A stretch of 36,471 bases of DNA, taken from Clostridia bacterium. GTDB lineage: Bacteria > Bacillota > Clostridia > Oscillospirales > Acutalibacteraceae. Every line of letters begins with the position of its first letter. Positions within the stretch are counted from its first letter, which is position 1. The position numbers and the translations under genes were made by a program. The notes under the pieces are model-generated. The model did not search any database. It saw only the letters and a list, made by a program, of their open reading frames with translations, and was not told the DNA's origin. The DNA is taken from the NCBI GenBank assembly GCA_017942105.1, contig JAGAVE010000036.1:1-36471 (forward strand), written 5' to 3'. Positions 2,967-31,277 of the stretch are shown piece by piece.

Positions 2967-2973
2967 AAATAAT

Positions 2974-4440: not shown

Positions 4441-4453
4441 ATGAAGCCTCCGA

Positions 4454-6016: not shown

Positions 6017-6046
6017 AAAAATCACCACTTTACAAATTGATACTTC

Positions 6047-6075
6047 ATTATAACACATATCTGCGTTATTTTCCA
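6047..6075 (-). promoter_or_regulatory. Promoter of araBAD operon
   Basis: The minus strand has a perfect TATAAT (6047-6052) with a weak -35 (TGGAAA, 6070-6075, 17-bp spacer). The expected transcript would start about 24 nt before the TTG of araB. A weak -35 fits a regulated promoter. Confidence 0.65.
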
Positions 6076-6111
6076 CAATTTTATACAATGCTTTTCATAA
6101 ATTTTAATTAA

Positions 6112-6140
6112 TTGAAATAATTTTGCCGCGATGGTATACT
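6112..6140 (+). promoter_or_regulatory. Promoter of GH43 gene
   Basis: TTGAAA (6112-6117) and TATACT (6135-6140) are separated by 17 bp, about 26 nt upstream of the start codon. It is divergent from the araBAD promoter with about 36 bp between the two -35 regions, so one bound regulator could control both. Confidence 0.75.
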
Positions 6141-6165
6141 GAAATTAAGAGAGGAGAGGTCGTTA

Positions 6166-7017
6166 ATGAAAAAAAGCGATATCAATATAAGAGATCCGTT
6201 TGTTCTCGCTGAAGACGGAAAATTTTATATGTACGGTACAAGAGCCGAGAATTTCGGCTGTAAAGTAGAAGGCTTTGATGTCTATATATCAGACGATCTT
6301 GAAAACTGGAGCAATCCTGTTGAATGCTTCGATTCAACAAAGTATGACCTTAACAACGAGGTTAACTGGGCGCCTGAGGTGCACAAATATAACGGAAAGT
6401 ATTATATGTTTGCAACCTTCACGATGGATAACGGTAACAGGGGTACGGCTGTTCTTGTTTCTGACTCTCCCGAAGGGCCTTTTGTGCCGCACAGCGATGG
6501 CGCGGTAACACCGAAGGATTGGATGAGCCTTGATGGAACGCTTTATGTAAGTAAGGAAAATAAACCCTATATTGTTTTCTGCCACGAGCATGTTCAGATT
6601 TTTGACGGAACTATATGCTACGCTGAGCTAACGCAGGATTTAAAAGCGATAAAGGGCGAAATCAGAACTCTTTTCTCTGCATCAGAGCCATCGTGGGCGG
6701 ATGACTTTGAAGAGGGAAAACACTTTATAACTGACGGCCCGTTTCTTTTCAGAACAAAGAGCGGTGAGCTTCTTATGCTCTGGTCAACCTTTATAAAGGG
6801 TAATTACAGTGAATGTCTTGTGAGATTCAAAGACGGGGAGCTGAACGGCAATTTTGAGCACCTTGAGCCTCTTATCAAGGATGACGGCGGTCACGGTATG
6901 ATTTTCACCGCAGGCGACGATTTGTACCTTACTTATCACACACCGAACAGAACTCTTTTTGAAAGACCGGATTTCAAAAAGCTAAGGGATACCGGCAGAA
7001 GTATTGAACTTTTATAG
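6166..7017 (+). CDS. GH43-like five-bladed propeller glycosidase (arabinan/xylan side-chain type)
   Basis: A 283-residue single-domain protein of the GH43 (clan GH-F) fold. These enzymes are mostly alpha-L-arabinofuranosidases, arabinanases or beta-xylosidases. The catalytic base position is Asp10 in INIRDPF, and Asp123 in MSLDGTLY is a good pKa-modulator candidate. The general-acid position reads TDGPFLF (Asp190) instead of the usual Glu of the EGP motif. There is no signal peptide, so it should act in the cytoplasm on imported oligosaccharides. AGGAG lies upstream of the ATG at 6166. Divergence from araBAD makes arabinose release the most likely role, but substrate cannot be fixed from sequence. 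Confidence 0.85.
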   Translation: MKKSDINIRDPFVLAEDGKFYMYGTRAENFGCKVEGFDVYISDDLENWSNPVECFDSTKYDLNNEVNWAPEVHKYNGKYYMFATFTMDNGNRGTAVLVSDSPEGPFVPHSDGAVTPKDWMSLDGTLYVSKENKPYIVFCHEHVQIFDGTICYAELTQDLKAIKGEIRTLFSASEPSWADDFEEGKHFITDGPFLFRTKSGELLMLWSTFIKGNYSECLVRFKDGELNGNFEHLEPLIKDDGGHGMIFTAGDDLYLTYHTPNRTLFERPDFKKLRDTGRSIELL

Positions 7018-7061
7018 TAGTGATAATAAACAAATCGACAAGCTCGTTTTAGTGCTTAATG

Positions 7062-7103
7062 GCATATTTTGGTTTTGTTGTTGTTATCAAAACCGAAATA
7101 TGC
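7062..7103. promoter_or_regulatory. Long inverted repeat abutting the MFS promoter (operator candidate)
   Basis: Arms 7062-7077 and 7088-7103 are 16 nt each and complementary except for one position that would be G-U in RNA; a 10-nt spacer separates them. The right arm ends exactly at the -10 box of the MFS gene and the -35 box falls in the spacer. No T-run follows, so it does not look like a terminator of the GH43 gene. Confidence 0.6.
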
Positions 7104-7109
7104 TATAAT
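7081..7109 (+). promoter_or_regulatory. Promoter of MFS-LRR operon
   Basis: TTGTTA (7081-7086) and a perfect TATAAT (7104-7109) are 17 bp apart. They are embedded in the inverted repeat at 7062-7103, so the site is likely regulated. Confidence 0.7.
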
Positions 7110-7137
7110 TAAATATCATTTTTAAGGGGGTATGTTC

Positions 7138-8925
7138 GTGAGTGAAAAGTCCGGAGCTTTTGGCAAGGTCAAGGATTTTATGACCGAGGTCAAAACACAT
7201 TGGAACACTCCGAAAGAAGGAAATTATGTTCCGTACAAAGAGTATAAGGATATCTTTATTGCAGTAGGCAGCAACTATGCCGGTTCAAAAATGCTTGAAT
7301 ACATTTCATTCGGCGTAGGATGCTTCCTCATAATGCACCATTATGAGCTTCCTTATCTCACCTATGCAATTATCAGCCTTATCAATATGCCGCTGAATTA
7401 TATCGGCTCTCTTATCTCGTGGTATGTAAGTGATAACCTTGGCTTTCTTCCGAAGAAATCTGAACGCAAGGTCTATGCGACTTATTTTGCGTTTGCAATA
7501 GCGGGTCTGACACTGCTTTTCTGGGATCCGGTAACGTGTATGGATATCAACAGCTCGTTCGTCAGATTTTTTAATACCCTTAACGGTATGAGTGCAACGG
7601 CGTTCTTTAAGATTGTAGGAACACATCTTCTTTATACGGGATGGACGGGCGCAAGAAACATTTTCTGGCGTAAGAAGCTTATTCCGAAATTCGGAAGATA
7701 TAAGTATTCTCTTTACTGTGACTTTGTTCCGAAATCTGTAATGGTTATTCTTATCGGTTGGCTTCCTCTTTATAATATTCCCGATATGGCGACCAGAGTG
7801 TGGGCCGCAAACCTGCTGTTTGCTTGTTATAATGTTTTTGGCTTTGCTAACAATCTTGAAACTTGTACAAAGTCTATCAGCCCGAACACGAGAGAAAGAA
7901 TTCTCGTAAGAACATATCCTATCAAGCTTTCTCATCTTTTCCATTCAATCATAGCTATCATTATTCCCGTAATCATCGGAGCGTTGAAGGATGAATGGGC
8001 GGATATCAATGTTTTCCGTTTTGTTATTCCCGGAATGTTTATTACATTTGCAACTCTTACGATGTTTTTTGCAGGACGGGTTCAGGAGAGAATTCCTCAG
8101 CCGCCTATAGAGAAGAAGGTTCAGATCAGCTTCTGGGACGGTATGTTCGGTGTTCTTCGCAATAAGTATCTCTGGATAAACACCCTTGTCGGTCTTCTTG
8201 ACTCGCTTGGAAACGGTATGCTGGCGTTTACGACGGTTCTTTATCTGTATACCTTCCGCCTCAGCGGTTTGCCGTATAGTCTCATCGTGGCGCTTGTTTC
8301 CTTCGCGGGTACTCCTCCGGATTTCTTTACACCGTACTTCATAAAGAGATTCAGCTACAAGCAGATAATGATTTTCTATCAGCTTTCAAGAGCTCTCGGA
8401 TATACGGCGATTGCTTTAGCTTTGAATTTCTTCGGAGATAACCTTGTTCTTTGCGGAACGATTTGTGTTGTTGTTCTTATATTTATGGAGGCAACCAGCA
8501 CCGTTCCGAAGTCAGCGGCACATGATATGAATGTTCGAATTACGGACTATCAGATGTATCTTTCGGGTGAACGCCTTGAAAATTATTCGGGTGTTTACAG
8601 TAATGCAGGTATCTTCAGTTGGTTTACAGGACCTATAACATCTTTCGTTGGCCTTATTATTCCGCTCATTCTTCTTACGGCAGGATTTAACGGTAACTGG
8701 GATGTTTTGTTTATCGATTCGGCAAGATTCAGTATCATTATCGTTCCGCTGATTATCGAAATCGTAGGATATTTCCTTATGACAATTCCGTTTATGTTCT
8801 GGGACTATGACAGCTCCAAGCAAGAGCAGGTTATGCAGGTTCTTCAGCGCAGAGCAGAGGTAACAGAAGGCTTAGCAAAAAAAGAAGAGCAAGCGGTAAC
8901 GGTAAACGCCGGAAAGGGGGATTGA
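7138..8925 (+). CDS. MFS-type sugar transporter
   Basis: An integral membrane protein of 595 residues with many hydrophobic segments and the general look of the major facilitator superfamily, possibly near the glycoside/pentoside/hexuronide cation symporters. It is longer than the usual ~450 residues because of a ~45-residue hydrophilic N-terminus and a charged C-terminal tail. The start is taken as GTG at 7138: AAGGGGG ends at 7130, giving a 7-nt spacing, whereas the ATG at 7132 would be 1 nt from it. It is translationally coupled to the LRR gene (1-nt gap). Location between GH43 and GH30 suggests uptake of pentose or galactan oligosaccharides; the cargo is inferred. Confidence 0.8.
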   Translation: MSEKSGAFGKVKDFMTEVKTHWNTPKEGNYVPYKEYKDIFIAVGSNYAGSKMLEYISFGVGCFLIMHHYELPYLTYAIISLINMPLNYIGSLISWYVSDNLGFLPKKSERKVYATYFAFAIAGLTLLFWDPVTCMDINSSFVRFFNTLNGMSATAFFKIVGTHLLYTGWTGARNIFWRKKLIPKFGRYKYSLYCDFVPKSVMVILIGWLPLYNIPDMATRVWAANLLFACYNVFGFANNLETCTKSISPNTRERILVRTYPIKLSHLFHSIIAIIIPVIIGALKDEWADINVFRFVIPGMFITFATLTMFFAGRVQERIPQPPIEKKVQISFWDGMFGVLRNKYLWINTLVGLLDSLGNGMLAFTTVLYLYTFRLSGLPYSLIVALVSFAGTPPDFFTPYFIKRFSYKQIMIFYQLSRALGYTAIALALNFFGDNLVLCGTICVVVLIFMEATSTVPKSAAHDMNVRITDYQMYLSGERLENYSGVYSNAGIFSWFTGPITSFVGLIIPLILLTAGFNGNWDVLFIDSARFSIIIVPLIIEIVGYFLMTIPFMFWDYDSSKQEQVMQVLQRRAEVTEGLAKKEEQAVTVNAGKGD

Positions 8926-8926
8926 C

Positions 8927-10138
8927 ATGAAAAAGACTAAAAAAGAGAAAAAGACTGCCAATCCTGAACAGAAAGTAATTCTTAATATTCCCGATGAAGA
9001 GGTATGGGACTATAAAATTGAAGGGCTTGCCGCACCGATGATAGGTAAAACCTATAAAAATTACAATTTGAAAAAGGTTCTTCTTGCAGTTGCGGTTGTG
9101 TTGGTCATATCTTTATCCTTCCTTTTCAGTGTTCTTACGCTGACGAAGGACACCTTTGAATACGAGGCTCTTTCAGACGGTACTTATAAGCTCACTCAGT
9201 TTAGCAATACGGGTAACATTAAAGAGCTTGATATTGATTTTGTTTCAGAGGTTGAGAAGGAGACGGTTCTTGAAGACGGTAGTGTTGAGGTCACTTTTTC
9301 AAAGGATGAGACCAAACCGGTTACTTCAATTCGTGAGTATGCTTTCAACTGCGATGAAAAGATTGAAGTTATTAACATCGGTGCTAAAGTAAAGGAAATT
9401 GATGCGAAATCGTTCTATTCCTGCTGGGCGCTTCAAAGAATTGAGGTCGATGAAGATAACCCGTATTTCTGCGATGTTGACGGCGTTCTTTACACTAAGG
9501 ATATGAAAACCCTTATTTGCTATCCTATCAATTATGATTGGTATCTGGCTCAGGAAAACGGCTTTGAAAAGGAGCTCTGGCCGGGTGATGAAGGATATGA
9601 TGAATACAAGAAAGCCAATATGACGATAGTTATTCCGTCAACGGTTGAGCATATCGGTGACCTTGCACTCAACTACAACGCACTTTCAGATATTTATCTT
9701 CCCGAAGGACTTAAAACTATCGGAAATCTCGCATTCTTTGAATCAACTCTTACTGAAAATATATACAGCTATAAGGGCGAAAGCGGGCAGATAATCGGAG
9801 CTGATAAGATAAGCTTTGCCGATGAGGATATTTATCTTTCACTCCCCGAGGGTCTTGAATCAATCGGCACAGATGCCTTTAACTATAATCGCGCACTCAG
9901 CTATATGTATGTTCCCTCGAGTGTCAAATTTATCGGTCATCATGCATTCTGGGATACAGTCTATAAAGAAGACGGAGATCTTAAGGGTGTAGCTTATATC
10001 GATGTTGCGGCTGATGAATCGACCTTTACGGGAAATGTTGAGCTCGGTACCGACTGGTTACCGCATTATGATAACGGACTTTTCCCCAAGAAGATTGATG
10101 TTAACTACGGTGCAACGAGAAAAGTAATTGAAAAATAA
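8927..10138 (+). CDS. Membrane-anchored BspA-type leucine-rich-repeat protein
   Basis: A 403-residue protein with a charged cytoplasmic N-terminus (1-48, many Lys/Glu), one membrane span at about 51-71, and an external region with BspA-type LRR_5 repeats from about 108 to 360. Repeat hallmarks include IPSTVEHIGDLAL, LPEGLKTIGNLAF, LPEGLESIGTDAF and VPSSVKFIGHHAF. The ATG at 8927 follows the MFS stop by 1 nt, with AAAGGGGG inside the end of the MFS gene, so the two proteins are probably made together. LRR_5 domains often bind surfaces, glycans or proteins; here it could be an accessory or substrate-capture partner of the transporter. That role is inferred from gene coupling only. Confidence 0.8.
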   Translation: MKKTKKEKKTANPEQKVILNIPDEEVWDYKIEGLAAPMIGKTYKNYNLKKVLLAVAVVLVISLSFLFSVLTLTKDTFEYEALSDGTYKLTQFSNTGNIKELDIDFVSEVEKETVLEDGSVEVTFSKDETKPVTSIREYAFNCDEKIEVINIGAKVKEIDAKSFYSCWALQRIEVDEDNPYFCDVDGVLYTKDMKTLICYPINYDWYLAQENGFEKELWPGDEGYDEYKKANMTIVIPSTVEHIGDLALNYNALSDIYLPEGLKTIGNLAFFESTLTENIYSYKGESGQIIGADKISFADEDIYLSLPEGLESIGTDAFNYNRALSYMYVPSSVKFIGHHAFWDTVYKEDGDLKGVAYIDVAADESTFTGNVELGTDWLPHYDNGLFPKKIDVNYGATRKVIEK

Positions 10139-10142
10139 AATC

Positions 10143-10180
10143 AGCAGAGAGAATGTTTGTTTTTCCTCTCTGCTTTCTTT
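10143..10180. terminator. Bidirectional intrinsic terminator (LRR gene / GH30)
   Basis: A 9-bp stem (10143-10151 with 10166-10174) is followed by TTCTTTT on plus and by T-rich sequence on minus. It separates two convergent genes. Confidence 0.75.
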
Positions 10181-10183
10181 TGG

Positions 10184-11605
10184 TTATTTTATTGTAATTG
10201 TCATAATGCTCTTTTCAGGAATTGTCACTCTTTTTTCGAAGTCTCCCTCATAAATCTTTTCACAGTTATGGGTTGCATCCGTAAGGTATATTTCGGCATC
10301 TCCGATTATACCTCCGATATTAAGCTTTTCTTCGCCATCGGGGTTGACGATTACGATGACGGTTTCGTTTTCTTCACCGATAAAGGCGACGGTACGCATA
10401 TTTGTTTTGTTTTTCATTATATCGAATATCCGTACTCTCGTCATACCGGGTTTAATAAATGATGTGAAATGCTTGAATGCGTAATATCTGTTGTATTCAA
10501 TAAGCTCTCCTTCGGCTGTTCTGTCAAGAAGTCCGTCTCCGTTGACTGCTGTCCAGCTTTGCCACGAAACGGCATTCATAAGATTAAGGTCGTCTGCAAT
10601 GACGGTTGCCATCCTTATTCCGCTGTCAATGGTTGTGCTGTCTATCTGCAAAGGAAGCTCGCACCATTCGCTCATTTCGTATTTTTTATCAGGATATTCT
10701 TCCTTGAATTTCTTGCCGACTGCGGTTTTTTCCTCTAGTGCATCGGGATTGTCCATCCAGTAGGAATGCCCGCTGTAAGTGTCGCAGAAATCATTGAGAA
10801 TTTCACTTTCAAAGAACTTTTCAACATACGCGTAATATCCCCAGCTCATCTGTCCGTTTTCAGGACCGCTGAGCTTATATGGTGAATTGCGCTTCTGCAT
10901 TTCTGTTGCAAAAAGCTCAAGGAGCTTTACTGCTTCATCAGGCTCATAGTGGCATCCCTCTTGGCCTACCCAATCGGGACTGCCCCAGGACCATTGAGGC
11001 TCATTGATGGGGGAGATTGCGTAAATGGGATAACCCTGAGCAACAAACCAATCGGCAATTGTCAGAAGATAATCAACAAACGCCTGATAGTTTTCTTCAG
11101 GAAGATTAGAGGAGTATTCTTCAAGTCCGCCCGAAGCGTGTCCGCTTTTAGTCATTGAAAAGTGAGGACTGTTACAAAACAGGATGATTTTTTCTGCGCC
11201 GTATTCAATCGCATAGTCGAGCATACGGCGTGCATTCGCGTCCCTTGTGAAGTCGTAGATATATTCGCCCGTTTTTTCGTCGAGGACATAAAAGCTTTCC
11301 GTTCGCCTTGATGTGTCCCATATTCTGCAGTCAGGGTTATCGGCCTCACCTCCGCCGATGTTATAACGGAAAATTTTCAGTCCGAGACCCTCATCTTCAC
11401 TGTAAAGCTTTTTGGCGATTTCGCGCGCCATTGCATCGTCTTCAATTGTCTGAGCCCACCAGCATGAGCTTGTGCCGAATTCTTCAAAAGTCTGATATTT
11501 TTTAGTCTTGTCAATCACGATCGCGTGCCTCCCGAAAAGTCCCGAAACTGGTAGTAAGCAAAACTGGATAATCGCAAGAAGTATTGCTATGATTTTTGTA
11601 AACAC
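10184..11605 (-). CDS. Secreted GH30-family glycosidase (endo-beta-1,6-galactanase-like)
   Basis: A secreted (beta/alpha)8 glycosidase with a C-terminal beta domain. Residues below are numbered from the upstream ATG at 11614: signal peptide or anchor about 4-28, FGTSSCWWAQ near 46-55, acid/base Glu205 in ISPINEPQ, nucleophile Glu316 in YEMSEW. The WWAQ segment resembles the GH30 subfamily of endo-beta-1,6-galactanases, so arabinogalactan is a plausible substrate; this is family-level inference. The start is placed at GTG 11605 (473 residues), because GAGGAGG touches the ATG at 11614 with no spacing but stands 9 nt before the GTG. The gene is monocistronic and divergent from GH3. Confidence 0.85.
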   Translation of the reverse strand: MFTKIIAILLAIIQFCLLPVSGLFGRHAIVIDKTKKYQTFEEFGTSSCWWAQTIEDDAMAREIAKKLYSEDEGLGLKIFRYNIGGGEADNPDCRIWDTSRRTESFYVLDEKTGEYIYDFTRDANARRMLDYAIEYGAEKIILFCNSPHFSMTKSGHASGGLEEYSSNLPEENYQAFVDYLLTIADWFVAQGYPIYAISPINEPQWSWGSPDWVGQEGCHYEPDEAVKLLELFATEMQKRNSPYKLSGPENGQMSWGYYAYVEKFFESEILNDFCDTYSGHSYWMDNPDALEEKTAVGKKFKEEYPDKKYEMSEWCELPLQIDSTTIDSGIRMATVIADDLNLMNAVSWQSWTAVNGDGLLDRTAEGELIEYNRYYAFKHFTSFIKPGMTRVRIFDIMKNKTNMRTVAFIGEENETVIVIVNPDGEEKLNIGGIIGDAEIYLTDATHNCEKIYEGDFEKRVTIPEKSIMTITIK

Positions 11606-11630
11606 AGATATCATCCTCCTCTATGCCTTG

Positions 11631-11659
11631 ATTATATCATTCTTTTTCATAAAAATAAA
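11631..11659 (-). promoter_or_regulatory. Promoter of GH30 gene
   Basis: The minus strand has TATAAT (11631-11636) with a poor -35 (TTTATT, 11654-11659, 17-bp spacer). The start site would be about 20 nt before the GTG start. Confidence 0.5.
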
Positions 11660-11690
11660 TAAAAAAATTTAACAATATCGCGGTGATTGC

Positions 11691-11720
11691 TTGACGCTTG
11701 TTCGTTTTGGGGTATATAAT
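11691..11720 (+). promoter_or_regulatory. Promoter of GH3 gene
   Basis: TTGACG (11691-11696) and TATAAT (11715-11720) with an 18-bp spacer, 31 nt upstream of the ATG; AAGGACGGA precedes the start. Confidence 0.75.
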
Positions 11721-11751
11721 ACTTTAAACTGTTAATAAGGACGGATTTGCT

Positions 11752-14109
11752 ATGGAAAAATATTCAAGATTCAGATACCAGCCATGTATTCCTCTCGGCG
11801 AGGACGGAAGATGCGTAACGGCTTCCAAAAAGCACATCGCTCTTTCAAGAAGAGCCGCAGGCGAGGGCATGGTGCTTTTAAAGAATGAAGACTATGCGTT
11901 ACCCCTTGCTAAGGGTGAAAAAATTGCTCTTTTCGGCAAGGCTACGATTGAATACATAAAAGGCGGCGGCGGAAGCGGTGATGTCCATTGCCCGTATATC
12001 CGCAATATCTATGACGGCTTCGCATCCAAGGGTGTAGGAATTTATATGCCGCTCGTTGATTTCTACAGAGATTATGTTGAGAGAGAAAGCGTAAATATTC
12101 CCACTCAGGATCAGATCAATGCAACATGGGATATCGTAAACGCAATGGAATTCTGCACAAAGCGTGACGATATGACTTATGATACCTTTGCGAGTATGCA
12201 TGTTAAAGAGCCGGCGGTGCCCGATGAGCTTATAAAATCTGCTTCTGAATGGGCAGATACAGCAATAATAACTCTCAGCCGTTTTTCGGCAGAGGGCGTT
12301 GACCGCAGACCTATCCCTGGAGACTATTATCTTTCCGATATTGAAAAAGAGCTTATTGATAAAGCAGGTGAACTGTTTAAAAAGGTTGTAATTGTTATCA
12401 ATTCCGGTGCGGTTATCGACTGTGAATATTTTGCAGAGAATGATGATGTTCAGGCTGTTCTTTTCGGCTGGCAGGGCGGTATGGAAGGCGGTTCCGCTGT
12501 TGCTGATATTATCTGCGGCGATGTCAATCCTTCGGGTAAGCTTGTTGATACAATTGCCAAATCATATGACTGCTATCCTTGCAAGGATGATTTTTGGGAG
12601 TGCTTTGATCATCTTGATTATACAGATGATATTTATGTCGGATACCGTTATTTTGAAACGATGTCTCCCGAGTGCGTAAGATATCCTTTCGGCTTTGGTC
12701 TTTCGTATACGGAATTCAGGATGGGTCATCCTATGGTATGCGAGAATGATGATAAAATTATTGCAGCTATAGAAGTTAAGAATGACGGCAATGTTGCAGG
12801 TAAAGAGGTAATTCAGCTTTATTACAGTGCTCCCCAGGGTGAACTCGGCAAGCCTGCCAAGGAGCTTGCGGCGTTTAAAAAGACTAAGCTTCTTCAGCCG
12901 GGCGAAAAAGAAATGATTATGCTTTCGTTCGATGTTGAAGATATGGCAAGCTTTGACGACCTCGGCAAGGTGGGCGTTTCGGCCTATGTCCTTGAAGAGG
13001 GTGAGTATGAGTTTTATATCGGCACATCCGTAAGAGACGCGAACAAGGCTGATTTTGTTTATACTGTTGAAGATTCATATATTACGGATCAGCTTGACAG
13101 TTGGTGCAAGCCCTTTAAGCTCAGCAAGCGTATGCTTGCGGACGGCAGCTTCGAGGAGCTTCCGATGGGTGAAGAGGATTATTATTACGGTGAAAATAAG
13201 CCTACGGGCGCAACAGCTCCCGAAAAAGAGGTTAAGTTTGACCTTGTAGGCGAAGAAATTTCAATGGATGAGTTCGTAGCTCAGTTCACTCTTGAAGAGC
13301 TTATGGATTTCGTTGGCGGTCAGGCACCGACGGGCGTTGCGAATACAGGTTGCTTCGGTGGCCTTAAGAGGCTTTCTGTGCCCGCAGTTGCAACTGCTGA
13401 CGGCCCTGCAGGTCTTCGTCTTGATGTTGAAACGGGTATACCGACAACTGCATGGCCGTGTGCGACACTGCTTGCTTGTTGCTGGGATCCTGAACTCGTA
13501 TATGAGGTTGGAGCTGCAGGTGGCGCAGAGGTAAGGGAGAATAACCTCGGAATCTGGCTGACTCCGGCTCTCAACATTCACAGAGATCCGCTTTGCGGCA
13601 GAAATTTTGAGTATTATTCAGAAGATCCGCTCGTAGCAGGAAAGAATGCTGCAGCGGCAACGAGAGGTATTCAGTCGCAAAAGGTTGCTGTTTCGGTTAA
13701 GCATTTTGCTTGTAACAGCAAAGAGGCAAACCGAATGGGTTGCGATTCGAGAATTTCTGAAAGAGCTTTGCGTGAGATTTATCTCAAAGGCTTCGAAATC
13801 TGCGTAAAAGAGGGCGATCCTTGGACGGTGATGTCATCATACAATCTCATCAACGGTCAGCATACATCGGAAAGCTATGAGCTTCTTACTGAAATCCTTC
13901 GTAACGAATGGGGATTCAAGGGTATGGTAACAACTGACTGGGGTGTAAAAAATGATCCCGTTAAGGAAGTAAAGGCAGGCAATGATATGAAGATGCACTG
14001 CGGATATCCTGAAGACCTTAAAAAGGGTATCGAGGACGGAAGAATTACAAGAGCTGACCTTGAACTCTGCGTCAAGAGAATCCTTACAATGTTTACAAAA
14101 CTCGCTTAA
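11752..14109 (+). CDS. GH3 glycosidase with permuted domain order
   Basis: A 785-residue cytoplasmic GH3 enzyme (beta-glucosidase/xylosidase type) without a signal peptide. The domain order is reversed from most GH3 proteins. The (alpha/beta)6 sandwich domain comes first (GEGMVLLKNE near 38), then a fibronectin-III-like domain (about 320-440), and the TIM-barrel domain is last (about 500-785). The nucleophile is Asp729 in MVTTDWG, and the substrate-binding KHFACN and DGPAGLRLD motifs are present. This permutation is known from Ruminococcus albus and other gut clostridia. It probably hydrolyses imported oligosaccharides. Specificity (glucose, xylose, arabinose, galactose) cannot be read from sequence. 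It has its own promoter and terminator. Confidence 0.92.
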   Translation: MEKYSRFRYQPCIPLGEDGRCVTASKKHIALSRRAAGEGMVLLKNEDYALPLAKGEKIALFGKATIEYIKGGGGSGDVHCPYIRNIYDGFASKGVGIYMPLVDFYRDYVERESVNIPTQDQINATWDIVNAMEFCTKRDDMTYDTFASMHVKEPAVPDELIKSASEWADTAIITLSRFSAEGVDRRPIPGDYYLSDIEKELIDKAGELFKKVVIVINSGAVIDCEYFAENDDVQAVLFGWQGGMEGGSAVADIICGDVNPSGKLVDTIAKSYDCYPCKDDFWECFDHLDYTDDIYVGYRYFETMSPECVRYPFGFGLSYTEFRMGHPMVCENDDKIIAAIEVKNDGNVAGKEVIQLYYSAPQGELGKPAKELAAFKKTKLLQPGEKEMIMLSFDVEDMASFDDLGKVGVSAYVLEEGEYEFYIGTSVRDANKADFVYTVEDSYITDQLDSWCKPFKLSKRMLADGSFEELPMGEEDYYYGENKPTGATAPEKEVKFDLVGEEISMDEFVAQFTLEELMDFVGGQAPTGVANTGCFGGLKRLSVPAVATADGPAGLRLDVETGIPTTAWPCATLLACCWDPELVYEVGAAGGAEVRENNLGIWLTPALNIHRDPLCGRNFEYYSEDPLVAGKNAAAATRGIQSQKVAVSVKHFACNSKEANRMGCDSRISERALREIYLKGFEICVKEGDPWTVMSSYNLINGQHTSESYELLTEILRNEWGFKGMVTTDWGVKNDPVKEVKAGNDMKMHCGYPEDLKKGIEDGRITRADLELCVKRILTMFTKLA

Positions 14110-24027: not shown

Positions 24028-25128
24028 ATGACAGTAAAAGAACGCCTGAAGGCTCTTAATGTTCCTTCAGTGCTTGAAGTTACGGGTAACCGTGTTGAAA
24101 CAGCCGAAGAATGGGAAAAGATAAGACCTCTCGTCAGAGAAATGATGTATAAATGCGAATACGGTTATATCCCCGAAAAGCCCGAGAAGGTAACTTTTGA
24201 AATCAAGGAGACGGATGAAAGGTTCTGCGCAGGAAAGTCAACTCGTCTGGATATTGAATTAACATCCGTGATAAACGGTGAAGAGTTCACTTTCCCGTTT
24301 ACATATGTCTATCCTTCAAAGGTTCAGGGGAAAGTTAAAGCCTTTGTCTGCATAAATTTCCGCCCCGATGTGCCGGATAAGTATATCCCGACTGAGGAGA
24401 TTATTGATAACGGCTTTGCAATTGCGTCTTTTTGCTATCAGGATGTAACGAGCGATGACGGCGATTTTACAAACGGTCTCGCGGGCATTATCTATAAAGA
24501 TAAGGAAAGAACGCTTTATTCTCCGGGAAAAATCGCTATGTGGGCGTGGGCAGCGATGAGAGTTATGGATTTCCTTGAAACCCGAGAAGAGGTTGACATT
24601 GATTGCGTAACGGTCTGCGGACATTCAAGGCTCGGAAAGACAGCACTTCTTACCGGTATTTCGGACGAACGATTTGCCTGCGTCCATTCCAACTGTGCAG
24701 GATGTAGCGGTGACTCTATCAACAGAGGCAAGCAGGAAGGAACGGAAAAGATAGGCGATATCATCCGTAACTTCGAATTCTGGTTCTGCGAGAATTATAA
24801 GAATTATATCGGCAAGGATGACGAAACTGAGTTTGAACAGCACTTTATGCACGCTCTGATTGCACCCAGACCTGTACATATCGGCTCAGCTCAGGAGGAT
24901 AAATGGGCAGGTCCTGAGCTTCAGTTTTTATGCTGTGCTGCCGCATCTGAAGTCTATGAGCTTTACGGCAAAAAGGGCTTTGTATATGAGGAAGAGGACT
25001 ACCTCAACTGCGGTAAAATGTTAAATGACGGAAGTATCGGTCTGTACTTCCGCCACGGTAGACATTATTTTGCCCGTGATGACTGGCACGGACTTATTGA
25101 TTTTATCAATAAACACTTTCAGAATTGA
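24028..25128 (+). CDS. CE15-like glucuronoyl esterase (alpha/beta hydrolase)
   Basis: A 366-residue alpha/beta hydrolase resembling bacterial CE15 enzymes, which split ester bonds between glucuronoxylan and lignin or other glucuronate esters. The nucleophile elbow is CGHSRLGKTA (Ser200), the stretch SAQEDKWAGPEL (287-298) matches the conserved family segment before the third catalytic element, and His346 in GRHYF, followed by a DDW, is the likely catalytic His. No signal peptide is present, so it should act in the cytoplasm, unlike most characterised members. It starts 9 nt after ktrA, an unexpected operon partner. Its last 23 bp overlap the end of the convergent asparaginase-family gene. Confidence 0.8.
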   Translation: MTVKERLKALNVPSVLEVTGNRVETAEEWEKIRPLVREMMYKCEYGYIPEKPEKVTFEIKETDERFCAGKSTRLDIELTSVINGEEFTFPFTYVYPSKVQGKVKAFVCINFRPDVPDKYIPTEEIIDNGFAIASFCYQDVTSDDGDFTNGLAGIIYKDKERTLYSPGKIAMWAWAAMRVMDFLETREEVDIDCVTVCGHSRLGKTALLTGISDERFACVHSNCAGCSGDSINRGKQEGTEKIGDIIRNFEFWFCENYKNYIGKDDETEFEQHFMHALIAPRPVHIGSAQEDKWAGPELQFLCCAAASEVYELYGKKGFVYEEEDYLNCGKMLNDGSIGLYFRHGRHYFARDDWHGLIDFINKHFQN

Positions 25129-26113
25129 TATCTGTATTTAAAAATTCATAAAGTCCATTTTCTTTAAGGCTGAGAGAACAGCCGATGACTGCTTTTGCAT
25201 ATGCTGTTTCGTTCGTCAGTCCGTCAACAGTAATGGCACCGTTTTTGAGTGCAGTTGCCGTTGTTTCGTAAGAAAAAGAGGATTTACTGCAAGGTGTAAG
25301 TATAAGGCTTACACCTTCTTTTTTGCACTTTTTTGCAAACTCTGCGAATGAATTGTTATCACCGTCAACACAAACGGTTTGCGAATGATATGTGGTGTGA
25401 ACAACGGCAGAAACATTCTCAGTGTTAATGCTGTTATAATCTAATCCTACATACGGATTAATAATTAAAACATTTTTATCAAGTTTCTGTATTTCATTCA
25501 GAAGATTGTTGTGCGTTTCAAATGCAATGCTTTCTTTGCAGGCTTCTTCAATGTTTTCAACAGCAATCATATCTTTACTGAAAAAGTCATTGCTGTAATT
25601 TCCGCATTGAAGCAGGTGAGCGCCGTAATGAAGATAGGTCTTTCCGTCAGAGTTTTCATAAACGGCATAAACATTTGGCTTTAACCCGTTCATAATAAGC
25701 TCAACAGCAGTTCTGAAGTTGATATTTGCATTAGTGCCTTTTGTATCAATCGGCGAATGGCTCGAAACAAGGCAGACGGGCAGATTCTTTTCGCTCATAA
25801 CAAGGGACAGCAGAGATGCCGTATAAGCGAGAGTGTCCGTCCCGTGAAGAATGATGATACCGTTATATTTTTCGCTTTCGGTCGCCCTTAATTCATCAAG
25901 AAGAATGTCCCAACGGTCAATTGTCATATTTTCGCTGAGGATATCAAGAGGCATCCTTGTTTCAAATTGAACGGAATTGAAAGGGGAGTCACTTTGCCTG
26001 AAATTATTGATTATTTTAAGCTCTGCGCTTTTTGCGTCTGATTCGCGTCTGCCGTCAGAGTTTTCTGATGAACATATCGTTCCACCCGTAAGAATTAAAA
26101 GTATTTTTTTCAT
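25106..26113 (-). CDS. Asparaginase-family protein (type I-like), possibly altered active site
   Basis: A 335-residue cytoplasmic protein of the L-asparaginase/glutaminase family. The first catalytic Thr is in LTGGTI (Thr12), and Thr92-Asp93 sit in HGTDTLAY. In the usual enzymes a Lys completes a Thr-Asp-Lys triad. Aligning by eye, that position here falls at about Gln169 (HLLQCGNYS) and no Lys is close, so activity may be weak or changed. AAAGGATA precedes the ATG. The gene is divergent from the T-box operon and overlaps the esterase gene tail-to-tail by 23 bp. Relatives include the archaeal GatD amidase subunit of GatDE. Deamidation of asparagine or another amide is the default guess. Confidence 0.78.
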   Translation of the reverse strand: MKKILLILTGGTICSSENSDGRRESDAKSAELKIINNFRQSDSPFNSVQFETRMPLDILSENMTIDRWDILLDELRATESEKYNGIIILHGTDTLAYTASLLSLVMSEKNLPVCLVSSHSPIDTKGTNANINFRTAVELIMNGLKPNVYAVYENSDGKTYLHYGAHLLQCGNYSNDFFSKDMIAVENIEEACKESIAFETHNNLLNEIQKLDKNVLIINPYVGLDYNSINTENVSAVVHTTYHSQTVCVDGDNNSFAEFAKKCKKEGVSLILTPCSKSSFSYETTATALKNGAITVDGLTNETAYAKAVIGCSLSLKENGLYEFLNTDINSESVY

Positions 26114-26563: not shown

Positions 26564-28666
26564 ATGTATAGAACTCATCTCTGCAACGAAATAAGAGAGA
26601 AACACATCGGCGAGGTTGTCGAACTCGCAGGTTGGGTTGATGTTGTCCGTGACCACGGCGGCGTTCTCTTTGTTGACTTGCGCGACTACACAGGAATTAC
26701 ACAGGTTGTTGTTCACGACGAAAATCTTCTTAAGGGCGTCAGCAAGGAAACCGTTATTTCCGTTAAGGGTACGGTTACCAAGCGTGATGAAAGCACTGTT
26801 AACCCGAAGATTGATACAGGTCTTGTTGAACTCGTTGCCGACACTCTTCAGGTTCTCGGCGTATGCAGCCGTGACCTTCCCTTTGAAATCGGCTCAAACG
26901 ATACTAATGAAAACATCCGTCTTAAGCACAGATTCCTCGACCTGAGAAATCCTGCGCTTCATAAGAATATCGTTCTTCGTTCAAATGTTATCCGCCATAT
27001 GAGAAAGCTTATGGAGGAAAAGGGCTTCCTTGAAATGCAGACGCCTATTCTTACAGCTTCATCTCCCGAGGGCGCAAGAGACTTCCTTGTTCCGAGCCGT
27101 AAGCATCCGGGCAAGTTCTATGCTCTTCCTCAGGCTCCTCAGCAATTCAAGCAGCTCCTTATGGTTTCAGGCTTTGACCGTTATTTCCAGATTGCTCCCT
27201 GCTTCCGTGATGAGGACGCCCGTGCTGACCGTTCACCGGGTGAATTCTATCAGCTCGACTTTGAAATGGCTTTCTCAACTCAGGAAGAGGTTCTCAAGGT
27301 CTGTGAGGATGTTGTAAGCGATGTTTTCCGCACATTCTCAGATAAGAAAATTACAGATACACCGTTCAGATGCATTCCTTACAGAGAGGCAATGGCAAAG
27401 TACGGTTCAGATAAACCCGACCTTCGCAACCCGCTTATTATCTGCGATCTTACGGATATGTTCAAGAGAGTTAAGTTCAAGCCTTTTATGAACAAGCAGG
27501 TAAGAGGTATCGTTGCTCCTTGTAAGAATGAAAGATGGTTCTTCGACAAATCTCTTGCATTCGCTCAGAAGCAGGCAAAGATGGCAGGTCTTGCTCATAT
27601 CACTCTTCTTGATGCTGAAAACTACGGCTTCAAGGATGATCCTATCAGCAAGGTTATGACAAAGGAAGAGATGAAAGAAATCGTCGAGCTTACGGGCGTT
27701 AAGGAAGGAGAGACAATCTTCTTCATCTGCGATAATTCTTCAGATATTGCAGATAAGAACGCAGGCGTTGTACGCACATGGCTCGGTAATGAGCTCGAGC
27801 TTATCAAGAATGATCGCTTTGAGTTCTGCTTCGTTGTTGACTTTCCGATGTATGAGCGCGACGAAACAACAGATAAGATTATCTTCACTCATAACCCGTT
27901 CTCAATGCCTCAGGGTGGTCTCGAAGCTCTCGAAACAATGGAGCCGACTGAAATCCTTGCATATCAGTACGACCTCGTATGTAACGGCATTGAGCTTGCA
28001 TCAGGTGCTGTGCGTAACCATAGCCCTGAGATTATGAGAAAGGCTTTTGAAATCGCAGGTTATCCGGAGGAAGAGCTTGAAAAACGCTTCAGCGCTCTTT
28101 ACAACGCATTCCAGTTCGGTGCACCTCCGCACGCAGGTATGGCCCCCGGTGTTGACCGTATCATTATGCTTCTTGCAGATACTGAAACCATCCGTGATGT
28201 TATCGCATTCCCGCTTGACGGTCAGGCTCAGGATCAGATGCTTGGCGCACCCAGTGAAGTTACAGAGCTTCAGCTTTACGAAGCTAATGTCAGCATCCGC
28301 GGCAGAGGCGGCTCAGAGACGCTCGGTTCAGATTTTTCTGACGGTTCAGCTCCTGTAGCAAAGTCTGCAAAGGCAGAAGCTAAGGCTGTTAAGGATAAGC
28401 TTGCAAGTCTTGAGTCTGTAAATGAGCTCAGCTTCAGCGATGATGAAAAGAAAAAGATGAACAGGATTTTTGAGATGATGTCCAAAAATGAGGTCAATCT
28501 CGGAAATACTGATACAGAAGATGTTGAACCTATGGTATATGTTATGCCGATGACCAACATTATCCGTGAAGATAAGAGAAATCAGCCGTTCGAACGCAAA
28601 GATCTTCTTGCAGGTGCTCCGCAGAGCACTGAGGATAGCTGGCAGGTTCCCAGACTTGTAAAGTGA
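26564..28666 (+). CDS. aspS: Aspartyl-tRNA synthetase fused to GatC
   Basis: A 700-residue protein in one open frame. Residues 1-585 are a complete bacterial-type AspRS: anticodon-binding OB domain, class II motif 2 (FRDEDARADRSPGEFYQLD), the bacterial GAD-type insertion (about 290-400) and motif 3 (GMAPGVDRIIML). A linker rich in Ser, Ala and Lys (about 586-604) leads to residues 605-700, which read as GatC: SFSDDEKKKM, then TEDVEPMVYVMPMTNIIRED and a final DLLAGAP...VPRLV. GatC is the small subunit holding GatA and GatB together. His31 (RDHGG) matches the residue linked to non-discriminating AspRS, which also charges tRNA-Asn. The enzyme should make Asp-tRNA-Asn and present it to the amidotransferase. 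AGGAGG precedes the ATG. Confidence 0.93.
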   Translation: MYRTHLCNEIREKHIGEVVELAGWVDVVRDHGGVLFVDLRDYTGITQVVVHDENLLKGVSKETVISVKGTVTKRDESTVNPKIDTGLVELVADTLQVLGVCSRDLPFEIGSNDTNENIRLKHRFLDLRNPALHKNIVLRSNVIRHMRKLMEEKGFLEMQTPILTASSPEGARDFLVPSRKHPGKFYALPQAPQQFKQLLMVSGFDRYFQIAPCFRDEDARADRSPGEFYQLDFEMAFSTQEEVLKVCEDVVSDVFRTFSDKKITDTPFRCIPYREAMAKYGSDKPDLRNPLIICDLTDMFKRVKFKPFMNKQVRGIVAPCKNERWFFDKSLAFAQKQAKMAGLAHITLLDAENYGFKDDPISKVMTKEEMKEIVELTGVKEGETIFFICDNSSDIADKNAGVVRTWLGNELELIKNDRFEFCFVVDFPMYERDETTDKIIFTHNPFSMPQGGLEALETMEPTEILAYQYDLVCNGIELASGAVRNHSPEIMRKAFEIAGYPEEELEKRFSALYNAFQFGAPPHAGMAPGVDRIIMLLADTETIRDVIAFPLDGQAQDQMLGAPSEVTELQLYEANVSIRGRGGSETLGSDFSDGSAPVAKSAKAEAKAVKDKLASLESVNELSFSDDEKKKMNRIFEMMSKNEVNLGNTDTEDVEPMVYVMPMTNIIREDKRNQPFERKDLLAGAPQSTEDSWQVPRLVK

Positions 28667-28676
28667 GGTGTTAAAA

Positions 28677-29864
28677 GTGGGATACTATATTAACGAAATC
28701 AAATCAACAGGAAATATCGCTGTTGACGATACAATCCTTATTAAAGGAACTCCTGCAACTGCAGGCTCTAAGATGCTTGAAAATTTCAACCCGCTTTTCA
28801 GCGCCGATGTGGTTGAAAGACTTGAAAAGTCCGGATATGAGATTTCAGGTAAAACAAATGTTGGTGAATTCGGCCTTGACCTTATGGGTGAAACCTCGTA
28901 TTTCGGTGCAACCGAGGTTGACGGTAAGCTCGCAGGTGCGGCTGCAACACTCGTTAAAAACGGCGATATAAAGGCAGCGCTTAATGTTGACCTTAACGGC
29001 GCACCCAGACGCGCGGCTGCTGTAGCCGGTGTTGATTTTATCAAGCCGACATACGGTACAGTTTCCCGTTACGGTGTGATCGCTGCTGCTTGCTCAGGTG
29101 AGCAGATCGGCGTAACAGCAAAAGATGCTGAATCTGTAAAGGAAATCCTTTCAGTTATTGCAGGTCACGATTCAAAGGATGGCACAAGTCTTCCTGCAGA
29201 GAAGTATGACTATGAAGATGTTGCTGTTTCAAGAATGAAGGTCGCTATTGTTAAGGAGCTTTATGACCTTGCATCCGATGAGGTAAAAGCGAATATTGAT
29301 AAGTATTCAGAGTCTCTTAAAGCTCTCGGCGTAACGGTCGAATCAGTTTCTCTTGATTGCGTAAAAGAGGCTCAGACAGCTTGGCAGATTCTTATGTCGG
29401 CGGAGACTACTAACAACCTTTCCCGTTTTGACGGTGTAAAGTACGGTTACCGTACTGCAGACTACAAGAATATCGATGAGCTTTATGTTAAGAGCCGTAC
29501 AGAAGCTTTTTGCTTCCTTACAAAGGCTACAATTATCTACGGTTCAGATGTTCTTGCGAAAGGTAAGTATGAATCCTGCTATGACAAGTCGCTTCGCATC
29601 CGCCGTGTTGTTGCAACAAAGGTTAAGGAGATTTTTGCTTCTTACGATGCAATTCTTGCTCCTGCTTGTGCAAATGCTGAGTATAAAGCATACGATATTA
29701 TCGATTCATTCGAAAAGGTATTTGAGGAGAGCGTATTTACAGCCGTTCCTAGCATCACAGGCTCACCTGCGATGGTAACAAAGGGAGTTCAGCTTATCGC
29801 TGACACATATAAGGACAATGTTCTTCTGAGCATTGCAAAAAGCGTTGAAGGATTGGAGGCATAA
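28677..29864 (+). CDS. gatA: GatA-like subunit lacking catalytic serines (pseudo-amidase)
   Basis: A 395-residue GatA homologue, about 90 shorter than normal. The N-terminal ~60-70 residues of GatA are missing, so homology begins at TILIKGTPATAGSKML. Lys23 of the Ser-cisSer-Lys triad is kept. The GGSSGGS segment with the cis-Ser reads DGKLAGA (82-88), and the nucleophile motif SDTGGSIRQPA reads VDLNGAPRRAA with Ala109 in place of Ser. The rest (KPTYGTVSRYG, NLSRFDGVKYGYR) is well conserved, so it is not a decaying pseudogene. It should fold and bind GatB/GatC but not hydrolyse glutamine. The start is GTG 28677, 6 nt after GAGGTG; another GTG at 28668 overlaps that site. Confidence 0.9.
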   Translation: MGYYINEIKSTGNIAVDDTILIKGTPATAGSKMLENFNPLFSADVVERLEKSGYEISGKTNVGEFGLDLMGETSYFGATEVDGKLAGAAATLVKNGDIKAALNVDLNGAPRRAAAVAGVDFIKPTYGTVSRYGVIAAACSGEQIGVTAKDAESVKEILSVIAGHDSKDGTSLPAEKYDYEDVAVSRMKVAIVKELYDLASDEVKANIDKYSESLKALGVTVESVSLDCVKEAQTAWQILMSAETTNNLSRFDGVKYGYRTADYKNIDELYVKSRTEAFCFLTKATIIYGSDVLAKGKYESCYDKSLRIRRVVATKVKEIFASYDAILAPACANAEYKAYDIIDSFEKVFEESVFTAVPSITGSPAMVTKGVQLIADTYKDNVLLSIAKSVEGLEA

Positions 29865-29867
29865 ACG

Positions 29868-31277
29868 ATGAAATACGAACTTGTTATAGGTCTTGAAACT
29901 CACGTTGAGCTTTCAACAGATTCAAAGCTTTTCTGCTCCTGCGGTGGTCATTCAAGCCCGAAGGAGCCCAATGATTGTGTTTGTCCTGCTTGCTGCGGTA
30001 TGCCGGGTATGCTTCCTGTTACCAACAAGCACGCAATCGAGCTTGCAGTAAAAGCAGGTTTTATGCTTAACTGCAAGATTAATCAGTATACAACTTTTGA
30101 TAAAAAGAGCTATTATTATCCCGACCTTCCCGCATCTTATCAGACTACACAGTGGTTTAATCCCATCTGCGTTGACGGTAGTGTGGAGATCGGTGAAAGA
30201 ACGATCGGCATCAAGCAGATTCATCTTGAAGAGGACGCAGGTAAGCTCGTTCACGATGATGCAACAAACACATCTTTTGTTGACTACAACAGAACAAGCG
30301 TTCCTCTTATAGAAATCGTAAGCCGTCCTGATTTCCGTTCATCAGATGAAGTTATTGCTTATCTTAAAAAGCTTAAGTCAAGCCTTCAGTTTGCAGGTAT
30401 TTCCGAGTGTGAAGAGGGCGCAATGAGATGTGATGTTAACATTTCTGTCCGTCCCGAGGGTTCAGAAGAATTCGGCGTTCGTGCTGAAATTAAGAACATG
30501 AGCTCACTCTCTGAAATAAAGGATGCAATCGAATTTGAAAAGGTTCGTCATGTTGATGCTCTTGAGCGCCATACAGAAATCCTTCAGCAGGAAACACGCC
30601 GTTGGGATGATGTCAAGAGACGCACATTCCCGATGCGTAACAAGGAAACAGCGGCAGACTACCGCTATTTCCCGGATCCGAATCTTATGCCTATCGTGAT
30701 TGATGATGAGTGGCTTGAAGCAATCCGCGCAAGTATGCCTGCAACAGCAGAGGAGCAGAGTCTCCGTTATACCGAGATGGGTATTCCTGAGAAGGAAGCA
30801 ATGGTACTCGCATCAGACAGAAAGCTTTCCGATACATTCGACGCAGTTGTTGCCCTCGGTAGAGCTCCGAAGTCGGTTGCAAGCTGGATTCTTACAGAAT
30901 GTATGGGTAATATGAAGCGTCTTGAGCTTGATGAGCTTAAAATTGATTCTGCTAAGCTTTCAAGAATTATTGAGCTTGTTGATACAAACGAAATCACTCG
31001 TCCTGCAGGAAAGAAGGTTCTTTCAGCAGTGTTTGAAAGCGATGTTGATGTTGATAAGTACTGCGAAGAAAACGGACTCAATGTCAAGGTTGATGAAGGA
31101 TTTATCCTCACGACAGTTCAGCGCGTTGTTGCTGAGAACCCCGATGCTGTTGCTAACTACAAGAGCGGTAAAACAAAGGCTATGCAGGCTCTCTTCGGTC
31201 TTATTATGAGAGAGCTCAAGGGAACGGGCGATCCCGTTGTTATCCGTGATCTTCTCCAGAAAGAACTCGATAAATAA
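29868..31277 (+). CDS. gatB: Asp-tRNA(Asn)/Glu-tRNA(Gln) amidotransferase subunit B
   Basis: A 469-residue GatB of normal length. It phosphorylates the side chain of Asp on tRNA-Asn (or Glu on tRNA-Gln) and swaps the phosphate for ammonia. Visible family blocks are VIGLETHVEL at the start, the Cys-rich zinc segment (C-C...CPACCG, about 23-45), YYYPDLPASYQ, the magnesium/ATP block IHLEEDAGKLVHD, RCDVNISVRP and EIKNMSS. The C-terminal helical and YqeY-like tRNA-binding tail ends in RDLLQKELDK. No catalytic block looks damaged, in contrast to the GatA-like partner. It starts 4 nt after the gatA stop with GGAGG upstream and is followed by a terminator, closing the operon. Confidence 0.96.
   Translation: MKYELVIGLETHVELSTDSKLFCSCGGHSSPKEPNDCVCPACCGMPGMLPVTNKHAIELAVKAGFMLNCKINQYTTFDKKSYYYPDLPASYQTTQWFNPICVDGSVEIGERTIGIKQIHLEEDAGKLVHDDATNTSFVDYNRTSVPLIEIVSRPDFRSSDEVIAYLKKLKSSLQFAGISECEEGAMRCDVNISVRPEGSEEFGVRAEIKNMSSLSEIKDAIEFEKVRHVDALERHTEILQQETRRWDDVKRRTFPMRNKETAADYRYFPDPNLMPIVIDDEWLEAIRASMPATAEEQSLRYTEMGIPEKEAMVLASDRKLSDTFDAVVALGRAPKSVASWILTECMGNMKRLELDELKIDSAKLSRIIELVDTNEITRPAGKKVLSAVFESDVDVDKYCEENGLNVKVDEGFILTTVQRVVAENPDAVANYKSGKTKAMQALFGLIMRELKGTGDPVVIRDLLQKELDK

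Follow-up and report, generated by a model that had tools for sequence, protein, structure and literature searches.

The gat locus

The window (the whole stretch of DNA analysed, 36,471 nucleotides) contains an operon in which a GatA homologue, hereafter GatA*, lies between an aspS-gatC fusion and gatB, together with a divergent gene for an asparaginase-fold protein (Table 1). GatA* combines amidase-signature homology (179 bits to the Pfam Amidase profile PF01425) with this gat operon context. Its best named model is TIGR00132 (GatA), at 259.3 bits, short of the curated cut-off of 481.1. The gene begins with a GTG immediately 3' of the aspS-gatC stop codon; the earlier note placed the start, and counted residues, from a second in-frame GTG at 28677. 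Only two further codons are open 5' of the start (open frame of 400 aa), which leaves no room in this frame for a concealed N-terminal part.

Table 1. Features of the locus, with positions in the window.
Feature	Position	Strand	Basis
Linked asparaginase-fold protein, 335 aa, divergent from the operon	25106..26113	-	PF00710 profile, linkage, alignment
aspS2-gatC fusion: second AspRS with GAD domain, C-terminal GatC (residues ~611-700), His31	26564..28666	+	profiles, alignment
gatA*, GatA homologue of 398 aa without triad, Gln-binding residues and ~64 N-terminal residues	28668..29864	+	profiles, alignments
GatA* Asp20, at the catalytic Lys place	28725..28727	+	alignment, codon read
GatA* Leu88, at the cis-Ser place	28929..28931	+	alignment, codon read
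GatA* Ala112, at the nucleophilic Ser place	29001..29003	+	alignment, codon read
gatB, 469 aa, kinase/transamidase site residues conserved	29868..31277	+	profiles, alignment

Loss of the glutaminase site

The solved GatAs 2df4, 3h0l and 3al0, which we take to be those of S. aureus, A. aeolicus and T. maritima, align with GatA* only from its residue 17-18 onward, and about the first 64 residues are therefore absent, within the 60-70 given by the earlier note. Two loops are absent as well. The 31 open GatA* frames encode 390-421 aa, against a median of 489 for canonical GatAs.

The main alignment sets 31 GatA* proteins against 51 canonical GatAs; L042, in which the gatA* frame is broken, was left out, and had entered earlier GatA* alignments as the first piece of its frame. 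The window copies L001-L003 and identical proteins were removed from one of these earlier alignments and from the GatB comparison. The catalytic Lys, present in 51/51 canonical proteins, is Asp or Glu in 31/31 GatA*, and the equally invariant cis-Ser (51/51) is Leu or Ile in all 31. At the place of the nucleophile, Ser in 51/51 canonical sequences, 26 of the 31 GatA* have Ala, Thr, Val or Phe; the other five have a Ser without the Lys and the cis-Ser. The intact Lys/cis-Ser/Ser triad occurs in 51/51 canonical proteins and 0/31 GatA*. The earlier note had both amidase serines missing, and the alignment bears this out with Leu88 and Ala112 (its Ala109). A catalytic Ser elsewhere in the protein was also considered, and alignments with the 51 canonical and the solved GatAs, the S. 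aureus and T. maritima proteins among them, gave no displaced Ser and no shifted triad.

Losses beyond those in the earlier note concern the catalytic Lys and the glutamine-binding residues. The latter are E330, R334 and D418 in yeast GatFAB (PMC4027206). In the window protein the three places are occupied by Leu284, Thr288 and Ser355. The Glu place is E in 51/51 canonical GatAs and L in 31/31 GatA*; the Arg place is R in 51/51 and T, V, A or N in 31/31; the Asp place is D in 49/51 and S, N, G or L in 31/31. Recurrence of the same changes in 31 proteins excludes chance, and on these alignments GatA* almost certainly has no glutaminase activity.

The remainder of the protein is far less altered: of 94 canonical-invariant positions 50 are kept, 11 are kept in part and 33, the catalytic ones included, are lost, in keeping with the earlier view that non-catalytic blocks are conserved. 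A further 20 positions are fixed in GatA* yet foreign to canonical GatA, many of them around the old pocket. They include Asp20, Asp71 (31/31) and Glu145, for which reason the former glutaminase pocket has probably turned acidic. Such a cluster could also belong to an active site of a new kind, centred for instance on Asp20, Asp71, Glu145 and Arg115, that hydrolyses another amide. This is very improbable: no Ser, Cys or Thr is among the 20 residues, the five proteins with a Ser at the nucleophile place are without the Lys and cis-Ser, and one relative (G041, below) dispenses with the serine region altogether.

Selection, distribution and further dead GatAs

Loss of catalytic residues and of an N-terminus might equally mark a decaying pseudogene, or a sequencing or assembly error; the frame in L042 is broken, and three relatives of greater divergence are truncated further. 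Against this, dN/dS of gatA* is 0.06-0.13 over 11 pairs (0.01-0.12 for gatB), and 31 open frames of 390-421 aa come from genomes of 11 families (f1, f11, f12 and f24; f29, f39, f42, f43, f52, f68 and f75, for the genomes with handles). In a tree of 29 GatA* and 29 other sequences, a single branch with support of 100/100 sets all GatA* apart. Decay or error is ruled out by the dN/dS values, this branch and the 31-sequence alignment, and the description of GatA* as a maintained pseudo-amidase holds, the 50 of 94 retained invariant positions included.

Fifteen of 60 relatives carry a GatA*, at least 46% identical to the protein of the window. A draw across the class (390 genomes besides that of the window, 391 in all) added 12, and five more named contigs (L036, L037, L039, L040 and L042) bring the total to 32 genomes, in 31 of which the frame is readable. 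The class-wide scan was run at E <= 1e-95, a threshold that shorter dead GatAs, for example those of G030 and G041 below, would escape. The genomes compared are MAGs of 65-99% completeness; of the MAGs to which the ten named GatA* contigs belong, seven are labelled Clostridia, two Oscillospiraceae and one Eggerthellaceae. The GatA* of the Eggerthellaceae-labelled contig, L040, is 47% identical, and reflects either transfer to Actinomycetota or mis-binning. On another contig (L039:6995-12809) gatA*-gatB is followed by a canonical gatA-gatB.

Weaker GatA matches among the 60 relatives comprise one canonical protein (G038, 409 aa) and three further dead GatAs. That of G041 (L208:9859-10764) has 302 aa and lies in an aspS-gatC-gatA-gatB operon; Asp takes the place of its Lys, and the segment that would hold the two serines is gone. 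In G030 (L209:5771-6718) the gene order is identical and the protein has 316 aa, with Glu for Lys, no cis-Ser stretch and Asn at the nucleophile place. The aspS adjoining both of these genes encodes RDHGG, a motif discussed below. The 412-aa protein of G037 (L210:8338-9573) has Glu for Lys, Leu for the cis-Ser and a Ser at the nucleophile place, and carries an N-terminal extension of ~80 residues that is GatC-like by eye, with no Pfam match. No gatB was found within the 18.5 kb fetched around it; canonical GatA and GatB are encoded elsewhere in that genome. In a tree with 17 canonical GatAs all 34 dead GatAs fall on one side of a 100/100 branch, on which G030, G041 and G037 are long branches. 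The blocks they retain are non-catalytic ones (GSKxL, KPTYGTVSRxG, NxSRxDGxxFGxR in two of three), as would be expected of a scaffold.

AspRS2-GatC, GatB and a probable route to Asn-tRNA

The AspRS linked to GatA* is mostly fused to GatC and comes in addition to a housekeeping AspRS (a fragment in G008). A His at position 31 is a mark of non-discriminating bacterial AspRS, and work on P. aeruginosa AspRS reportedly uses this type of anticodon-binding domain as its criterion. AspRSs linked to dead GatAs read RDHGG in 23/23 genomes read, the His being His31 of the window protein, against RDLG or RNLG in 27 housekeeping AspRSs of the same and related genomes, with Leu at that place. Judged by this residue, AspRS2 of the window is most likely non-discriminating and would make Asp-tRNA(Asn). 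AspRS-GatC fusions beside canonical GatA (G005:C6 = L174:6437-8518, L070 and L071) read RDMGG, and with Met31 represent a third type of AspRS.

The window GatB matches GatB_N (PF02934) and YqeY (PF02637). In an alignment of 20 GatBs from GatA* loci, drawn from outside the 12 genomes of the class scan, 74 of 84 canonical-invariant positions are kept in at least 80% of sequences, and E10, H12, E121, E122 and E149 are present in 20/20. ATP and Mg have been placed on GatB residues of this kind in GatFAB (PMC4027206). The U1-A72 pair required by bacterial GatCAB (PMC4206432) is present in the single tRNA(Asn) that could be read, on the GatA* contig L195 of genome G156.

Which other routes to Asn-tRNA are available in these genomes? 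That of the window (79.7% complete) encodes GlnRS, and no AsnRS, AsnA or second amidase was detected in it. The earlier note had suggested a second, active GatA as one source of ammonia; the single Amidase-family (PF01425) gene of this 79.7% complete genome is gatA* itself, which lends that suggestion no support. Among the 15 GatA* relatives GlnRS is present in 14, and AsnRS in four (G005, G008, G012 and G031) and not found in 11; it also occurs in G041. Canonical GatA is present in four (G005, G018, G031 and G046); three of these have the complete triad, and the copy in G046, which is partial, has both Ser. AsnA was found in one (G002). Genes resembling AsnB exceed the cut-off in seven, including the window's, and in many GatA*-free genomes, and are therefore uninformative. 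AsnRS and canonical GatA are both missing from nine of the 15, that of the window among them. Free asparagine has no direct way onto tRNA when AsnRS is absent, so that in these nine the GatA* gene set is the only visible route.

Four genomes of the same genus (G001, G007, G015 and G016) have AsnRS adjoining AsnA and no gat genes, and GatA* therefore seems to stand in place of AsnA and AsnRS, as in tRNA-dependent asparagine synthesis. In four further genus-mates (G003, G006, G010 and G013), only 61-79% complete, neither AsnRS nor gat genes were found, and they carry no weight either way. The AsnA of G002 (G002:C20:10890-11567) occurs without a detected AsnRS, and runs against the rule that prokaryotes with AsnA possess AsnRS (PMC4206432); this may be an effect of binning or completeness.

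The operon might instead encode a regulatory or editing assembly that amidates no tRNA, the enzymes for Asn-tRNA having been missed in incomplete genomes. The MAGs are indeed incomplete, some GatA* genomes have AsnRS, and in 9 of the 27 GatA* genomes with handles an AlaX-type editing gene comes next. This explanation is nevertheless improbable, given the conserved GatB site and His31 AspRS, and it is very unlikely that AsnRS was missed by chance in all nine genomes (68-88% complete). To go by these conserved features, the operon most likely makes Asn-tRNA.

A candidate asparaginase-fold partner

If GatA* makes no ammonia, where does GatB obtain it? The ASPARAGINASE-fold partner at 25106-26113 scores 103.4 bits against TIGR00519 (L-asparaginase type I; cut-off 260.5) and 89.5 bits against TIGR02153 (GatD; cut-off 324), and reaches neither cut-off. 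Proteins of this linked type adjoin the operon in 13 of the 27 GatA* genomes with handles: directly 3' of gatB in nine (G027, G059, G047, G238, G111, G419, G156, G415 and G332) and divergent upstream in four (G000, G009, G014 and G217). In five (G011, G002, G187, G330 and G194) they are encoded elsewhere. The linked type was not found in the other nine (G004, G005, G008, G012, G018, G031, G046, G314 and G347), which rules out a partner in every GatA* genome. Of these, G004 is 68% complete, G005, G018, G031 and G046 have canonical GatA, and in G008 and G012 the partner and canonical GatA are both missing. The flanks of the five other named GatA* loci (L036, L037, L039, L040 and L042) lack it too, and the whole 19.7-kb contig of G041, with the shortest dead GatA, carries no asparaginase-fold gene.

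Co-occurrence with GatA* is specific all the same. In a profile scan of 391 genomes the linked type scored 342-535 bits in 11/13 GatA* genomes and at most 210 in the 378 others (0/378; Fisher 1e-19); with the eight genomes used to build the profile removed, the figures are 3/5 against 0/378 (Fisher 1e-6). No homologue was found in 36 canonical gat loci when up to 7 kb on either side was included. Among GatA* relatives, 8/11 without canonical GatA have the linked type against 0/4 with it (p 0.026); a split by AsnRS gives identical numbers, so the two causes are inseparable. In a tree a branch with support of 100/98 separates the linked proteins from six unlinked homologues, a result to be read with caution as the branches are long.

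Searched against PDB sequences, the linked-type profile ranks the GatDs 1zq1 and 2d6f third and fourth. The catalytic residues of GatD we take to be Thr101, Thr177, Asp178 and Lys254, with matching places in the partner presumably having the same roles. The linked type keeps Thr12, Thr92 and Asp93, along with the GGT and HGTD motifs. At the Lys254 place, 15/15 linked proteins have Gln169, so the partner's own canonical triad is incomplete, and the view of it as an ordinary active asparaginase is weakened. Cys14, His162, Cys170, His239, His243, Ser244 and Cys248 are present in 15/15.

Distant asparaginase-fold genes occur without GatA*: one in G024, a genome outside the 391-genome draw, is unlinked and scores 253 bits, and the base function of the family may accordingly be something else. 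In this wider family (G026, G024, G029, G018, G019 and G033; L143-L150) Glu, Gln or Pro stands where the Lys would be, and 6/6 have His239/His243; its annotation as asparaginase is doubtful. An asparaginase of another type (L209:2373-3446) lies 0.3 kb upstream of aspS-gatC-gatA-gatB in G030, which is outside the clade, on the same strand and alongside the 316-aa dead GatA; none of its Thr, Thr, Asp and Lys is replaced, and it has a C-terminal domain.

Possible sources of ammonia for GatB

The literature assigns GatA two tasks, the release of ammonia from glutamine and its channelling to GatB (PMC4206432; PMC6523644; PMC4027206). The loss of the whole GatA active site under continued selection, often beside an asparaginase-like protein, probably points to a new source of ammonia. 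The uncoupling of glutaminase from ammonia use has a precedent in yeast GatFAB: when the extension of GatF that lies at the glutaminase site was shortened, transamidation with Gln fell and that with NH4Cl rose (PMC4027206).

The reading preferred here, to which we give a probability of roughly 0.45, is that GatA* would be a subunit without catalytic role in an amidotransferase dedicated to Asp-tRNA(Asn) that receives ammonia in trans, most likely via the asparaginase-fold partner where one is present. AspRS2, tethered by its own GatC domain, would make Asp-tRNA(Asn), and the covalently attached GatC would hand it to GatB, which would phosphorylate the Asp side chain and then add ammonia. GatA* would hold GatB and GatC together and form the upper end of the ammonia tunnel while making no ammonia. 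The ammonia would most likely come from, or pass through, the asparaginase-fold protein where it exists, much as archaeal GatD feeds GatE; where the partner is absent, free ammonium would enter the remodelled acidic pocket. Formation of the complex, Asn-tRNA as its product, and the in trans delivery and source of ammonia are what we infer from gene content, conservation and linkage.

Free ammonium of the gut remains a strong rival as sole donor. GatA* would then be an open funnel, and the asparaginase-fold protein would salvage or sense asparagine that cannot be charged without AsnRS. This is a real possibility, if not the favoured one. It accounts for the GatA* genomes that yielded no protein of the linked type, and for the near mutual exclusion of AsnA, the ammonia-dependent synthetase, and the GatA* operon: among 29 genomes searched, AsnA occurs in five GatA*-free genomes, all with AsnRS, and in one GatA* genome (G002). 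The change of Lys to Asp/Glu (31/31), together with the new Asp71, would acidify the former pocket. Asparaginase-fold genes of any type occur in 13/19 genomes without AsnRS against 1/10 with it, and also alongside canonical GatCAB (G019, G024, G026 and G029). What it leaves unexplained is a special type, marked by Cys14, His162, Gln169 and Cys170 in 15/15, that is found only with GatA* and often next behind gatB. The partner is regarded as the best candidate for the ammonia supplier, and from its linkage it might quite possibly supply or gate ammonia, at odds somewhat short of even.

Relation to known systems

Two AspRSs in one genome, AspRS-GatC fusion and tRNA-dependent asparagine synthesis are known kinds. 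The window locus resembles bacterial GatCAB (TIGR00132, PF01425) in its aspS-gatC-gatA-gatB order, amidase family, conserved GatB kinase/transamidase and presence of GatC, and differs in a GatA* without triad, Gln-binding Glu/Arg/Asp and ~64 N-terminal residues (259 vs 481 bits). With the second AspRS beside a discriminating one, and the use of an amidotransferase for asparagine, it recalls the systems of Deinococcus and Thermus (PMC4206432; PMC6523644). Unlike theirs, as those sources present them, the second AspRS here is of the bacterial GAD type and mostly GatC-fused, and GatA is a pseudo-amidase. AspRS-GatC fusions of the PRK12820 model (NF009460) have the identical domain order, although the window fusion scores 440 bits against 1379, and those beside canonical GatA (L070, L071 and G005) have Met31 in contrast to its His31.

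Archaeal GatDE offers the closest parallel to the partner, with an ammonia-side candidate of the asparaginase family, GGT and HGTD motifs and a profile that finds 1zq1 and 2d6f. The differences are that the present system is bacterial, has GatB in place of GatE and retains GatA* and GatC; that the partner matches GatD models only from position 63 and has Gln at the Lys254 place; and that the substrate here would be Asp-tRNA(Asn), if the partner acts at all. A bolder version of the preferred reading, which is rather doubtful, is that AspRS-GatC, GatA* and GatB, with a re-tooled asparaginase-fold subunit feeding the acidic GatA* funnel, may form a third amidotransferase architecture. Ammonia would in that case come from an amide other than or besides glutamine, such as asparagine, and the system would be an independent bacterial counterpart of GatD-GatE.

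A search of the literature open without subscription gave no report of a glutaminase-dead GatA or of an asparaginase partner of GatB. A gatA kept under selection after loss of the entire glutaminase separates the scaffold and tunnel role of GatA from its catalysis, and a lineage in which GatA* is seemingly the only route to Asn-tRNA makes the question of the ammonia channel directly testable. Should the partner prove to be the supplier, bacteria would have re-invented the logic of archaeal GatD. The data also suggest that the automatic names GatA and asparaginase are misleading for a whole group of gut Clostridia.

Other neighbours

When 26 neighbourhoods were clustered, no other widely recurrent gene was found beside the gat genes; 12 later GatA* neighbourhoods were searched for named queries alone. 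The AlaX-type tRNA-editing gene mentioned above lies next behind gatB or behind the asparaginase-fold gene (L171:2160-3317, L190:12746-13909, L192:8254-9408, L198:13150-14310 and L166:12666-13820; also in L159, L160, L163 and L191), and is absent from all 36 canonical gat loci. Both of the two, out of nine, that were scanned with profiles contain tRNA_SAD and DHHA1. Its product might clear unamidated Asp-tRNA(Asn). Elsewhere in the window, positions 2271-14109 hold an unrelated cluster for arabinose/arabinoside utilisation, whose ORFs, judged by eye, include an isomerase, a kinase, an epimerase-like protein, a transporter and a glycosidase.
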